DNA of 64,000 nucleotides from Coriobacteriia bacterium (lineage in GTDB: Bacteria > Actinomycetota > Coriobacteriia > Anaerosomatales > Anaerosomataceae). The translations under genes were made by a program, and so were the position numbers. The notes beneath the pieces were generated by a model, which searched no databases, had not been told where the DNA came from, and saw only the letters and a list, made by a program, of their open reading frames with translations. Location of the stretch: contig JAUSBY010000005.1 in assembly GCA_030651765.1 (NCBI GenBank), positions 310,001 to 374,000 of the forward strand, written 5' to 3'. Positions 18,424-23,269 of the stretch are shown one piece after another; positions within the stretch are counted from its first letter, which is position 1; each line of letters opens with the position of its first letter.

Positions 18424-19038
18424 GTAAGACTCCCGTCGGGGAAGAAACAACCATTAAGGAGAGAGTTAGCCGCACCGGACGCGATTCCTGCACGCAGCCG
18501 ACACCTATGTCGGCACCGTAAGACCGCTCCCGACGGTGCGTCTGGCGCGTGGACGTATGCGATCCGTTCCAGTATGCTATTCACCAGGTCTGAGCACGCT
18601 ATTTGGCGACACGAGCAGTACGTCTGCCGAGGGGACGACGGGGACATCGTGCCATCCAGCACAGAGGTGCACCGGGTAACGAGCGGCCGCGCGACCGACA
18701 TCACCGGGAACGCGCATGCTGCCGTCCCCCCCGCGACTCCCGCGAGCCTCATCCCGGCCCTCCGGCGCCAGGCAGCTCCACCAGGCCACTGAGCAGCATC
18801 ATCGGGCAGGTCTGCCCCACGAAGACCCACAGAATCGGCCACGTGCTCATCCATCTCGCTCCCCCTCTATGGCCCCGCGGCCACGCGACGCCCTTCCAGC
18901 GCGCGTACCGCGTGTCTGGCTACCGGTGTCCAGGCGCGCTACCGAAGGGAGGAGACACACGCGCGGCCGGTCCGGCAACCGGCGTATCAGTTTGGCCTGT
19001 AGCACACCTTTCGTTCAGACACCAAGGAGGTGTATGGC
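18424..19038. other. Long divergent intergenic region upstream of the hydrogenase operon
   Basis: These 615 bp separate the DUF2249 start from the hydrogenase small-subunit start. Apart from one possible 33-codon membrane peptide (18749-18850, minus), no open frame has convincing protein character. I found no good CRP/FNR, sigma-54 (TGGC-N8-TGC) or sigma-70 consensus, so any hydrogenase regulatory site here is not recognisable by eye. Confidence 0.5.
18749..18850 (-). CDS. Possible small membrane peptide
   Basis: A 33-codon frame starts at ATG 18850, with a GGGGAG element 8-9 nt upstream. It encodes one hydrophobic helix beginning MSTWPILWVFVGQTCPMMLL and a short Gly/Pro tail. Size and topology resemble accessory micropeptides of membrane complexes, but no family is recognised and the frame could be chance. 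An overlapping ATG in another frame uses the same ribosome site. Confidence 0.25.
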   Translation of the reverse strand: MSTWPILWVFVGQTCPMMLLSGLVELPGAGGPG

Positions 19039-20256
19039 ATGGCGCAAGAGGCGCACGGTGCGATCTACGATCTGCTTGCGGTCCGCGGTGTGAGCCGACG
19101 GGACTTCCTCAAGTACTGCAGCTACGTCGCTGCGATGCTTGGACTGTCCGAGGCTGCCGCCCCCGCGATCGCCGCCGCAGTCGAGAAGGGCTCGAAACTC
19201 AAGCCCGCACTCTGGCTCAACGGCGGTTCGTGCACCGGCTGCACCGAGTCGATGGCTCAGGTCGACTCGCCCGACGTAGCGACGATCGTCCTCGAACTGC
19301 TCTCACTCAACTACTTCGAGACGGTCATGGCAGCGGCTGGCGAGCACGCCGAGAAGAACATCCAGGACACGATCGCAGCCGGCGGGTACCTGCTCATCTA
19401 CGAGGGTTCGGTCATGACCGGCGAGGACGGCAACACCCTGCTGGTCAACGGACACAAGGGCACGGACATCCTCAAGGAGGCCGCTGAGAGTGCCGACGCG
19501 ATCATCGCGGTCGGTGCGTGTGCGGTCGACGGCGGATGGGTCGCGGCTCACCCGAATCCGGCCGGCGCAACAGGCGTGCAGGCGTTCCTCGACGTCGAGG
19601 GCGTCAAGACGCCCGTCGTGAACATCCCCTGCTGCCCGATGAACCCCGAGTGGGTCGTCGCGATGGTGGTCCAGTGGCTGCTCGTGGCCGAGGACGACCC
19701 GGCAACCTTCCTGGCCAAGACTGAGCTGCTCGGCAAGAGCTATGATGACCGGCTCACCGGCAGGAACGTCACACTGCTGTACCCGAAGTACGTCGTGGGC
19801 TCTACGATCCACGACAACTGTCCGCGCCGCGGGCACTTCGAGAACGGCGACTTCGTCACCGAGTTCGGTAGCGCGGAAGAAGCGATGGGTTACTGCCTCT
19901 ACAAAGTCGGCTGCAAGGGTCCCCAGACCTTCACGCAGTGTCCGATCACCCGTTGGAACCGCTCCGTGAGCTGGTGCGTGCAGTCCGGCGCGCCGTGCAT
20001 CGGCTGCGGCGCCATCAGCTGGGTGGACAACAACACACCGTTCTTCAAGCGTCTGTCCAGCATGCAGATGGGCGACGGCCTCGGATACGTCCAGCCCGGC
20101 AGCGTTGCAGCTGTCGTCGGCGGCGTGGCCGCGGCAGCGCTCGTCGCACACGGACTCGGCATGAAGGCCGCCGGCCGCATCGGCCCGGACGGTCCTCCCA
20201 CCGAGACCGTCAAGAAGCATGACCGCAAACGACAGGCGAAGGGAGGCGATAAGTAG
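19039..20256 (+). CDS. hysB: [NiFe]-family (probably [NiFeSe]) uptake hydrogenase small subunit
   Basis: The 405-residue precursor starts at ATG 19039, 8 nt after AAGGAGG. A Tat signal (VSRRDFLKYCSYVAAMLGL, residues 18-36) implies export. The proximal [4Fe-4S] cluster is bound by C65, C68, C161 and C199 (SCTGCTES; IPCCPMNPEW). The distal cluster uses H258, C261, C286 and C292. The medial site has C301, C320 and C323 plus C313 in SWCVQSGAPCIGC, where standard [NiFe] enzymes have Pro; a [4Fe-4S] medial cluster is therefore expected, as in [NiFeSe] hydrogenases. A C-terminal membrane helix (about 354-372) anchors it. The TAG stop overlaps the large-subunit GTG by 1 nt. Confidence 0.95.
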   Translation: MAQEAHGAIYDLLAVRGVSRRDFLKYCSYVAAMLGLSEAAAPAIAAAVEKGSKLKPALWLNGGSCTGCTESMAQVDSPDVATIVLELLSLNYFETVMAAAGEHAEKNIQDTIAAGGYLLIYEGSVMTGEDGNTLLVNGHKGTDILKEAAESADAIIAVGACAVDGGWVAAHPNPAGATGVQAFLDVEGVKTPVVNIPCCPMNPEWVVAMVVQWLLVAEDDPATFLAKTELLGKSYDDRLTGRNVTLLYPKYVVGSTIHDNCPRRGHFENGDFVTEFGSAEEAMGYCLYKVGCKGPQTFTQCPITRWNRSVSWCVQSGAPCIGCGAISWVDNNTPFFKRLSSMQMGDGLGYVQPGSVAAVVGGVAAAALVAHGLGMKAAGRIGPDGPPTETVKKHDRKRQAKGGDK

Positions 20257-21941
20257 TGGCTCGTGTAGTTGTTGACCCACTCACCAGGATCGAAGGTCAC
20301 ATGCGTGTGGAGTGCGAGGTCCAGGACAACAAGGTCGTTGACGCCTGGGTATCCGGCACGTTGTACCGCGGCATGGAGACCGTCCTGCTGGACCGCAGCC
20401 CTGAGGATGCGTTCTACGTTTCGCAGCGCATCTGCGGCGTGTGCCCCATCTCGCACAGCCATGCGTCTTCACAGGCAACAGAAGACGCGCTCGGGATCAA
20501 GATCCCCGAGGGCGGGCGTCTCGTGCGTAACCTGCTCGAGGCCGCGCAGTTCCTGCACAGCCACATCCTGTGGTTCTACAACCTGACCGCGCTGGACTAC
20601 GTCAGTCCCGTGAACGCGTTGTCGGCCAACATCGCCGACACCTATGCGCTGGCCCAGGCCGCCGGTACGAAGGCCGCCGACTTCGGCGCCGTCGCTACCC
20701 GCCTCAAGGCATTCGTGGACAACGGTCAGCTCTCCATCTTCTCCGGTCACTACTGGGACCACCCCGGCTACGCTCTTCCGCCGGAGCTCGACCTGATCGC
20801 CACGACCCACTACCTCGAGGCTCTCGAGATGCAGGCGGTCGCCAACGAGATCGTCGCCATCATCGCGGGCAAGTTCTCGCACCCGATGACCTCGGTCCCC
20901 GGCGGCACGGCGTTCGTTCCGACCGTGGAGAGGCTCGATGACATCCTGTTCCGCTTCATCCGGGTCAAGGAGTTCATCGATACAGCACTCATCCCCGACA
21001 CGCTCGCCATCGCGCCGTTCATCCTGGACGCCGCGGGCTACGGTGCGGGAACCGGCAACTTCCTGAGCTGGGGTGTCTTCGAGAAGAGCTCGCTCGTTCC
21101 CGAAGAGCGCTATCTCCCCCGCGGTTTCGCTCAGGGTCTGGCGGCCGAGGGCGTCACGCCCGAGGACGTCACCGAGGACGTCACGCGTGCATGGTACTCG
21201 TCGGCAACCGGCCTCAACCCCGCACAGGGCGAGACGGTCGCCAAGTTCACGGAGTACGACATGTCGAACTTCCCCGGCGAGACCGACCAGTACTCATGGG
21301 GCAAGGCGGTTCGCTGCAAGGGCAAGTCGACCGAGTCAGGTCCGCTGGCCCGCATGATCGTCGCCTACCTCGCCGAGAAGGGCGGGGCCGACCTTACCGG
21401 TGGCGCAGCCGGTGTTCGCACGCCTGCAGCGCTCATCGACTCGACCCTCGAGGCGCTCGGCGTCGGCGGCAAGCCAGAGGTGCTCGTGTCACTGCTCGGC
21501 CGCGTCGCAGCCCGGAACCTTGAGGCTGCCTACGTCGCCGATCTGGCGCTCGTATGGGTCAACGAGACCATCGAGGCCATCAAGGGTGGCGACGCCAAGT
21601 TCTGGCAGGCCGCCGAGACCGACGCCGGTGACGGCGTGGGCGCCTGGGAAGCTCCCCGTGGTTCGGTCGCACACTGGATCGGCATCAAGGGCGGCAAGAT
21701 CGATCACTACCAGGTCGTTGCTCCCACCACGTGGAACACCTGCCCGCGCGATGACAGCGGCGTACGTGGACCTCTCGAAGAGGCCCTCGTAGGCGCACCG
21801 ATCGCCGATCCCGAGCGCCCGCTCGAGATTCTGCGAATCGGCCACAGCTTCGATCCTTGAATCGGTTGCCAGGTTCACGTGTTTGAACCTAAGACCGGCA
21901 AGGAAGCCACCCTCCCGATCACCCGCATGGGGGTGATGTAG
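20256..21941 (+). CDS. hysA: [NiFeSe] hydrogenase large subunit, selenocysteine at TGA 21858-21860
   Basis: The gene starts at GTG 20256. The N-terminal half-site is RICGVCPISH (C60, C63, H67), preceded by DPLTRIEGHM. The frame meets TGA at codon 535 exactly after RIGHSFDP, where all such subunits continue with Cys-x-x-Cys. Reading through gives U535-I-G-C538-Q-V-H541, a perfect C-terminal Ni-Fe ligand motif, then 20 residues to TAG 21939-21941, 561 residues in all. A hairpin fitting a bacterial SECIS follows the TGA. The 20 residues after H541 fit the peptide removed by the maturation protease encoded two genes on. The cytochrome b ATG abuts the TAG, so the extended end also fits the operon spacing. 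Stopping at the TGA would leave a protein without two active-site ligands. Role: periplasmic H2 oxidation. Confidence 0.93.
21858..21897 (+). promoter_or_regulatory. Sec UGA codon with bacterial SECIS-like hairpin
   Basis: After TGA (21858-21860), AGGTTCA (21871-21877) pairs perfectly with TGAACCT (21884-21890) around the six-base loop CGTGTT. An outer CGGT/ACCG pairing (21863-21866 with 21894-21897) extends the stem. The apical loop begins 18 nt after the UGA and contains GU, matching the spacing and loop character required for SelB-dependent insertion. It lies in the coding frame, as bacterial SECIS elements do. Confidence 0.8.
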
Positions 21942-22571
21942 ATGGCAGGGCACGCACACTACCGTGAGGCCCATCCGCTGGTGTTCGTGATCACGCACTG
22001 GATCAACCTGATCTGCATGATCATGCTCGCCTTCTCGGGCTTCTACATCCACTACCCGTTCTTTGGCGGGTTCATGGGTGTCGCCCGCGGCATGCACTTC
22101 GTCGCGATGTATGTGATCATCATCAACCTGACGTTCAGGATCATCGCCGCCTTCTTCGTGAAGACCGCGACCGATCTTGGCAGCCATCAGGTGGACACGG
22201 ACATCAAGAACTGGCTGCCGCAGGAGAAGAACAAGCACCAGTTCTTCGAGACGGTCAAGTACTACATCTTCCTGCGCAAGGAGGCCGTGATCTCGGCCAA
22301 GTACGGGTCGCTCCAGAAGATCGCGTACCTGGCGACGATCCCGCTCACCTACCTCATGGCGTACACCGGCTTTGCGATCTACGGGCCCACGATGACCTGG
22401 GGCCTGTTCTCCGGCGGCGTCGAGATGGTCGGCGGTCCGATGAACATGCGGATCATCCACTACTTCATGATGTGGGTGTTCATCGTGTTCACGATGATCC
22501 ACGCCTACCTGGCCAACATCTACAACTTCAAGCCAAGCAAGATCATCTTTGCCTGGAAGGAGTCGGAGTAG
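21942..22571 (+). CDS. hyaC: Hydrogenase cytochrome b subunit (b561 type)
   Basis: The 209-residue protein starts at ATG 21942 directly after the extended large-subunit stop. It has four to five hydrophobic helices (about 14-36, 48-74, 120-146 and 160-190), with candidate haem ligands in ITHWINL, GMHFVAM, RIIHYFMMW and IHAYLA. The family anchors the exported hydrogenase dimer in the membrane and passes electrons through two b haems to the quinone pool. The loop between helices two and three is charged and rather long. Its place in the operon identifies it as the partner of the small subunit's C-terminal helix. Confidence 0.93.
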   Translation: MAGHAHYREAHPLVFVITHWINLICMIMLAFSGFYIHYPFFGGFMGVARGMHFVAMYVIIINLTFRIIAAFFVKTATDLGSHQVDTDIKNWLPQEKNKHQFFETVKYYIFLRKEAVISAKYGSLQKIAYLATIPLTYLMAYTGFAIYGPTMTWGLFSGGVEMVGGPMNMRIIHYFMMWVFIVFTMIHAYLANIYNFKPSKIIFAWKESE

Positions 22572-22687: not shown

Positions 22688-23269
22688 GTGATCGAAGAGA
22701 ATCCCCGCGTGCTCGTGCTCGGCATCGGCAACATCCTGATGCTGGACGAGGGCGTCGGCAACAAGGTCGCCACCGAGCTCCAGTGCAACTTCATCTTCCC
22801 CGATGATGTCGTCGTCATGGACGGTGGCACCATGGGACTCGGGATGATCCACCTTTTCCGCGGCGTCGAGTTCCTGCTGCTCGTCGACGCGGTCGACAGC
22901 ACCGGTCACCCCGCCGGGACGGTCGTACGCGTCAGTCCGCACGACTTCGCGCCCAACCAGGTTCTCCACTCGCTGCACGACGTTCGGTTCGTCGACGTGC
23001 TCAACGCGGCAGAGATGATCGGCATCATGCCCGAGGCGGACTGCATCGGAATCCAGGTCGAGAACATGAGTCCTGCCGAGATCGAGATCGGACTGAGCGC
23101 CCCGGTCGCAGACGCGGTGCCGCGAGCGATGGCCGCGGTCCTGTATGTCCTCGAGGAGCACGGTGTCATCGCCGAGCCCGCAACCGGTCCCGACAGCGAC
23201 CCGGCATTGCAGGCACGCATCGCACAGGAGAAGGCCGACGTAGCGAGCCGTCAGGCCGAGGGCGCCTGA
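22688..23269 (+). CDS. hyaD: Hydrogenase maturation protease (HyaD/HybD family)
   Basis: This 193-residue protein begins at GTG 22688 behind GGAGAGG. The nickel-sensing residues are present: Glu in GIGNILMLDEGVG, Asp in VDAVDSTGHPAG and His in HSLHDVRF. The endopeptidase binds the Ni already inserted in the large subunit and cleaves after the conserved His, removing the C-terminal peptide. That requires an intact large-subunit C-terminus, an independent argument that the subunit extends past its TGA. The protein has an extra C-terminal tail of about 25 residues. Its 3' end overlaps that of the convergent histidine kinase gene by 19 nt. Confidence 0.93.
   Translation: MIEENPRVLVLGIGNILMLDEGVGNKVATELQCNFIFPDDVVVMDGGTMGLGMIHLFRGVEFLLLVDAVDSTGHPAGTVVRVSPHDFAPNQVLHSLHDVRFVDVLNAAEMIGIMPEADCIGIQVENMSPAEIEIGLSAPVADAVPRAMAAVLYVLEEHGVIAEPATGPDSDPALQARIAQEKADVASRQAEGA

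Follow-up and report, generated by a model that had tools for sequence, protein, structure and literature searches.

Selenocysteine (Sec) in hydrogenases has been linked to shielding of Ni against overoxidation and to high activity in H2 evolution, with examples drawn from few lineages. In the HydDB classification, [NiFeSe] variants are given for groups 1a, 3a, and 3c only, while group 1i is listed as "Coriobacteria-type" with an undetermined role (PMC5037454). In the paper describing the first Anaerosomatales brought into culture, a group 1i [NiFe] hydrogenase is reported alongside a cytochrome b and a protease, and no term starting with "seleno" appears (PMC9686372). A 2026 review confines [NiFeSe] hydrogenases to sulfate reducers and methanogens (PMC13188914), a restriction to which Thermacetogenium may already have been an exception, going by the passage of PMC6895022 that names its enzyme. 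Within the open-licence literature, our searches turned up no Sec hydrogenase described from the class or phylum considered here. The Sec form of the group 1i lineage described below is apparently new, published descriptions mentioning the ordinary Cys enzyme only, and its priority is not certain.

Here we analysed a window of 64,000 nt (the whole stretch of DNA under study) from a Coriobacteriia genome of 2.26 Mb in 15 contigs, estimated to be 97% complete. The window carries a four-gene hydrogenase operon on the + strand, comprising genes for a small subunit, a large subunit, a b-type cytochrome, and a maturation protease. The small-subunit gene (19039..20256; Pfam PF14720 and PF01058; TIGR00391) likely starts at the ATG at 19039, which has AAGGAGG upstream, rather than at the GTG at 19030 where the listed open reading frame opens; its product bears the Tat signal RRDFLKY and a hydrophobic segment at the C-terminus. 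The large-subunit gene (20256..21941; 561 codons including an in-frame TGA) opens with a GTG that shares one base with the small-subunit TAG. It is followed by the gene for the b-type cytochrome (21942..22571; PF01292, with TIGR02125 slightly below cut-off), the predicted membrane anchor and quinone link, and by that for a maturation protease of the HyaD/HupD type (22688..23269; PF01750, TIGR00072, and TIGR00140).

Under the standard code, the large-subunit frame ends at the TGA at 21858..21860, directly after RIGHSFDP, which gives a truncated product of 534 residues. When this codon is read as Sec 535, the protein gains a further 26 residues (IGCQVH and 20 more; U-IGCQVH-VFEPKTGKEATLPITRMGVM) before a TAG at 21939..21941 that adjoins the cytochrome b ATG at 21942, and the readthrough subunit then covers the entire PF00374 profile (500 bits). 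In alignments, the TGA falls on the Cys of SFDPCIACGVH (D. fructosovorans) and of SYDPCIACGVH (D. gigas), as well as on the Sec of HysA, and the tail gained by readthrough can be aligned to [NiFe] and [NiFeSe] large subunits alike. The earlier note had placed the TGA right after SFDP at the family's Cys-x-x-Cys position, and had followed the frame through U-I-G-C-Q-V-H and 20 residues to the TAG; translation and alignments bear out both observations. Sec almost certainly takes the place of the proximal Ni-binding Cys, at the second CxxC, in what is predicted to be a membrane-anchored periplasmic uptake hydrogenase of the respiratory kind, and the reading of the product as a putative Sec hydrogenase is, on sequence grounds, very well supported.

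It is important to consider whether the enzyme could have been taken over from sulfate reducers as an ordinary [NiFeSe] hydrogenase of the HysA type, given that the Sec position is identical. The small subunit adds a second likeness, having Cys at the medial-cluster position where D. gigas and standard [NiFe] enzymes have Pro (SWCVQSGAPCIGC; PDB alignment), and a [4Fe-4S] medial cluster is therefore predicted. A medial Cys instead of Pro is a reported feature of [NiFeSe] enzymes. As a marker of Sec enzymes, however, the medial Cys was rejected, as it is shared by Cys-type relatives in the class, while Pro occupies this position in four Sec hydrogenases from outside the class and Cys does so in Sec enzymes inside it. 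Sequence models likewise argue against a HysA origin: the HysA model NF045518 scores 398.6 bits against a cut-off of 780, and the nearest solved relatives are Cys-type [NiFe] enzymes of Desulfovibrio, at 415 bits compared with 313 for HysA. The frhA model scores 129 bits against a cut-off of 392.

In a maximum-likelihood tree built from an alignment that left out the Sec residue and the tail, all 51 sequences of the class formed one clade (100/100), within which a Sec branch (97/95) and a Cys branch (100/99) were sister groups. Sec enzymes of other families lay near the class clade, and HysA stood apart at full support (100/100). Approximately unbiased (AU) tests rejected a single clade of all Sec forms (p 9e-47). 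An earlier tree with few outgroups had not rejected such a clade (p 0.18), a result that we ascribe to sparse sampling given the strong rejection obtained once 17 loci, drawn from across the class or beyond it, were added. A HysA-type enzyme acquired from sulfate reducers is thus very unlikely, and the sequence relationships place the enzyme in the Actinomycetota lineage that holds the Cys "group 1i" enzymes and not in the HysA lineage of sulfate reducers. The term [NiFeSe] used in the earlier note stands as regards the Sec codon at a Ni-ligand Cys and the accompanying Sec machinery, but does not extend to membership of the HysA [NiFeSe] lineage.

The TGA could also be a real stop, leaving a gene that is truncated, inactive, or decaying; the standard code does end the frame there, and readthrough is predicted here from sequence. 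The distribution of the codon among relatives speaks strongly against this. Of 398 genomes of the class surveyed, 221 had a relative, and one in-frame TGA was found in 69 genomes among the matches listed. The codon fell at the same residue in all 68 retrieved TGA loci of the class, within SFDP-U-x-G-C-x-V-H or nearly so, and Cys homologues had TGC or TGT at this site. A sample of 396 genomes drawn from the phylum yielded a TGA at the same site in 12 genomes or loci of three families outside the class, at 45-50% identity. Recurrence of one codon, always at a Ni ligand, in 69 class genomes and 12 outside loci is improbable for a pseudogene mutation. Moreover, an extension of 25-27 codons follows the Sec codon in 69/69 Sec genes, and the pN/pS of the tail is 0.36 in frame compared with 0.71 and 1.15 in the other two frames, from which we conclude that the tail is translated. 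A real stop would also leave the co-encoded protease without the substrate tail, and would not account for the conserved hairpin behind the codon. Termination at the TGA is highly improbable. The earlier note had attributed a Sec hydrogenase to a Coriobacteriia-like organism, which is supported by the sel genes, the aligned tail, and orthologues with TGA; the trait is not peculiar to this organism but common to the whole order, probably Anaerosomatales (OPB41), and to other Actinomycetota.

Several features of individual class members were also observed. In two Sec hydrogenases, the site where the protease is expected to cut reads GCGVQ, with Gln for the usual His. Three genomes contain both Sec and Cys forms, the Cys-type copies being located in otherwise Sec-type genomes, and such pairs may constitute a selenium-dependent switch. 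A record titled Aeromicrobium sp. (JADIIM010000024.1) encodes an 89% identical hydrogenase, and its name looks wrong.

The region behind the TGA (21861..21898, + strand) forms a SECIS-like element with a predicted folding energy of -15.7 kcal/mol. Its apical stem, described in the earlier note as a perfect 7-bp stem with a GU-containing loop 11 nt after the TGA, was recovered exactly: 21871-21877 pairs with 21884-21890 around the hexaloop CGUGUU (21878-21883), beginning at the 11th nucleotide after the codon, and a weaker lower helix joins 21862-21867 to 21893-21898. While a stem of at least 7 bp arose anywhere in the region in about 19% of synonymous recodings of the window sequence (mostly a different stem), 7 bp at the natural spacing was obtained in 0/20,000. 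The longest Watson-Crick stem had a mean length of 6.8 bp across 61 distinct Sec sequences (7 bp in 51, 6 bp in nine, and 5 bp in one), compared with 3.6 bp after synonymous recoding, and the median fraction of recodings reaching the natural stem was 0.003. For 22 Cys homologues, in contrast, the stem was 3.55 bp compared with 3.32 bp after recoding, with a median fraction of 0.72. A hairpin of 5-7 bp (mostly 7) at fixed spacing was thus present in all Sec sequences examined, and its loop always contained GU or a GT-rich sequence. In the main form the outer two pairs vary as GC, CG, and AT; in a second form, TGTCCAC-GTK-GTGGACA, the stem is kept in a shifted register and the protein changes from VFEP to VVDT. 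The hairpin of the out-of-class Sec loci reads almost letter-for-letter GGTTCACGTGATTGAACC. Such a stem-loop directly downstream of UGA, with G and U in the apical loop and conserved only in Sec genes, has the features of a bacterial SECIS. Rfam scans matched no SECIS or other family; the single weak hit, to an osmY RNA on the opposite strand, fell far short of its gathering score.

The Sec machinery of the host genome bears on how the UGA is decoded. Genes selA, selB, selC, and selD are all present; selA, selB, and selD are found inside a stretch of about 12 kb of contig 8, and tRNA-Sec(UCA) follows approximately 7 kb further on, such that the sel genes fall within 20 kb on a single 66-kb contig. 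The selD gene itself carries an in-frame TGA, as do both molybdopterin oxidoreductases of the genome (contig 1), where the codon lies inside EHQARI-U-HSSTVAGLG, which we take to be the canonical Sec position of formate dehydrogenase; the frame of one of the two reads to over 1400 residues. Two tRNA-Sec genes were found (contig 8, 63627-63719; contig 13, 12178-12270), sharing about 91% identity over 134 bases. The contig 13 gene lies next to a C-terminal piece of selB (89% identical) where a 12.6-kb contig ends, and this second set is either another sel locus or contamination by a contig of a related organism. The genome contained no Cys copy or second full-length hydrogenase of the family, its single other match being below cut-off, and the orthologues carry the same TGA.

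Decoding of the UGA outside the Sec system, whether by reassignment to Trp or Gly or by a near-cognate Cys-tRNA, might be suggested by the failure to detect selA in 12 of the 69 TGA genomes, some of them 93-98% complete metagenome-assembled genomes (MAGs). Here, however, a dedicated tRNA-Sec(UCA), SelA, SelB, and SelD are present, TGA terminates ordinary genes such as that of the protease (23267-23269), the other TGA genes found have the codon at canonical Sec sites, and Ni binding is impossible for Trp or Gly. Such decoding is extremely unlikely. Across the class, SelA was present in 57/69 TGA genomes compared with 47/78 Cys genomes among the matches listed (Fisher p 0.0036), and its presence alone separates the two only moderately because many Cys-type genomes keep SelA for other proteins. 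One of the 12 SelA-less TGA genomes yielded selB, and two others yielded tRNA-Sec. We searched eight genomes for molybdopterin genes: six (G047, G051, G073, G111, G115, and G129) had at least one with an in-frame TGA, the search of G145 gave no match, and in G022 none of ten such genes had a TGA. G022, a 99% complete genome of the same order, has no detected SelA or tRNA-Sec and holds the hydrogenase in the Cys form only, the pattern expected if the hydrogenase TGA requires the Sec system. Absence of selA from TGA-bearing MAGs likely reflects a missing sel contig, because the sel genes are clustered within 20 kb in the window genome and because six of the seven retested SelA-less genomes with a hit have TGA-bearing molybdopterin genes; true loss is a less favoured possibility. 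The idea that SelA-less MAGs use TGA without Sec is weakened by the same six genomes.

Finally, a sequencing or assembly error for TGC, only a single base away and conceivable in that the public relatives named are all MAGs, is refuted by the recurrence of TGA, followed by a codon-specific hairpin, in 69 genomes from different projects, and its probability is negligible.

With UGA read as Sec, we propose that the system would work as follows. SelB carrying Sec-tRNA would bind the hairpin behind the UGA, the codon would be decoded as Sec, and translation would continue for 26 codons to the TAG. The Hyp machinery would then put in the NiFe centre, and the co-encoded protease would cut off the C-terminal tail (21882..21938) after His541, as expected from cleavage in the family. 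The Tat system would export the dimer, and electrons from H2 would presumably reach cytochrome b, and then quinone, by way of three predicted [4Fe-4S] clusters, the cluster types and the direction of flow being inferred. Hairpin-dependent insertion by SelB, removal of the tail by the protease, export by Tat, and transfer of electrons to cytochrome b are established for these families.

The distribution of Sec and Cys on the tree implies at least 3-4 changes, and the tree fixes neither the root nor the direction (gain versus loss). A single clade of Actinomycetota Sec sequences was rejected (p 1e-4). One Cys enzyme (L107) sits inside the Sec branch with moderate support and has lost the hairpin, and is most simply explained as a likely Sec-to-Cys reversal. 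We tentatively raise, as a possibility short of even probability, that Sec is old and perhaps ancestral in a respiratory-hydrogenase lineage spanning multiple classes of Actinomycetota, separate from HysA, and that the group 1i Cys enzymes derive from it by Sec loss; two or more gains of Sec are allowed equally by the tree data.

A second, broad bacterial group 1 lineage in which Sec and Cys enzymes occur naturally as sisters, both of them in some genomes, would offer a direct test of the role of Sec. Annotation of these genomes may present their large-subunit genes as truncated, and use of H2 by these organisms may depend on selenium. If the Sec residue is confirmed, the statement that [NiFeSe] hydrogenases occur in sulfate reducers and methanogens only (PMC13188914) will need revision.

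The Fru and Vhu Sec hydrogenases of methanogens (groups 3a and 3c) share with ours a Sec in the large-subunit UxxC motif, whereas they are cytoplasmic and belong to a distant subfamily. The archaeal SECIS is located elsewhere than the bacterial one. HysAB of Desulfovibrio and Desulfomicrobium (PDB 5jsu, 1cc1, and 4kl8) resembles our enzyme in having Sec at the same Ni ligand, in being a periplasmic group 1 enzyme, and in its related small subunit, but forms a separate lineage; ours is more similar to the [NiFe] enzyme of D. fructosovorans, and its operon combines a Tat signal with a cytochrome b anchor. The periplasmic enzyme of Thermacetogenium phaeum, called [NiFeSe] outside sulfate reducers and methanogens (PMC6895022), differs from ours in belonging to Bacillota. 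Another close system is the group 1i "Coriobacteria-type" [NiFe] hydrogenase of Anaerosoma and Parvivirga (PMC9686372), a label that we apply by way of that study rather than from a HydDB classification of the sequence. It shares the operon of small subunit, large subunit, cytochrome b, and protease, and the nearest Cys relatives of our enzyme in the tree come from other families of the class; the difference lies in the Ni ligands, all four of which are expected to be Cys in a group 1i [NiFe] enzyme, whereas the proximal one is encoded here by TGA at residue 535.
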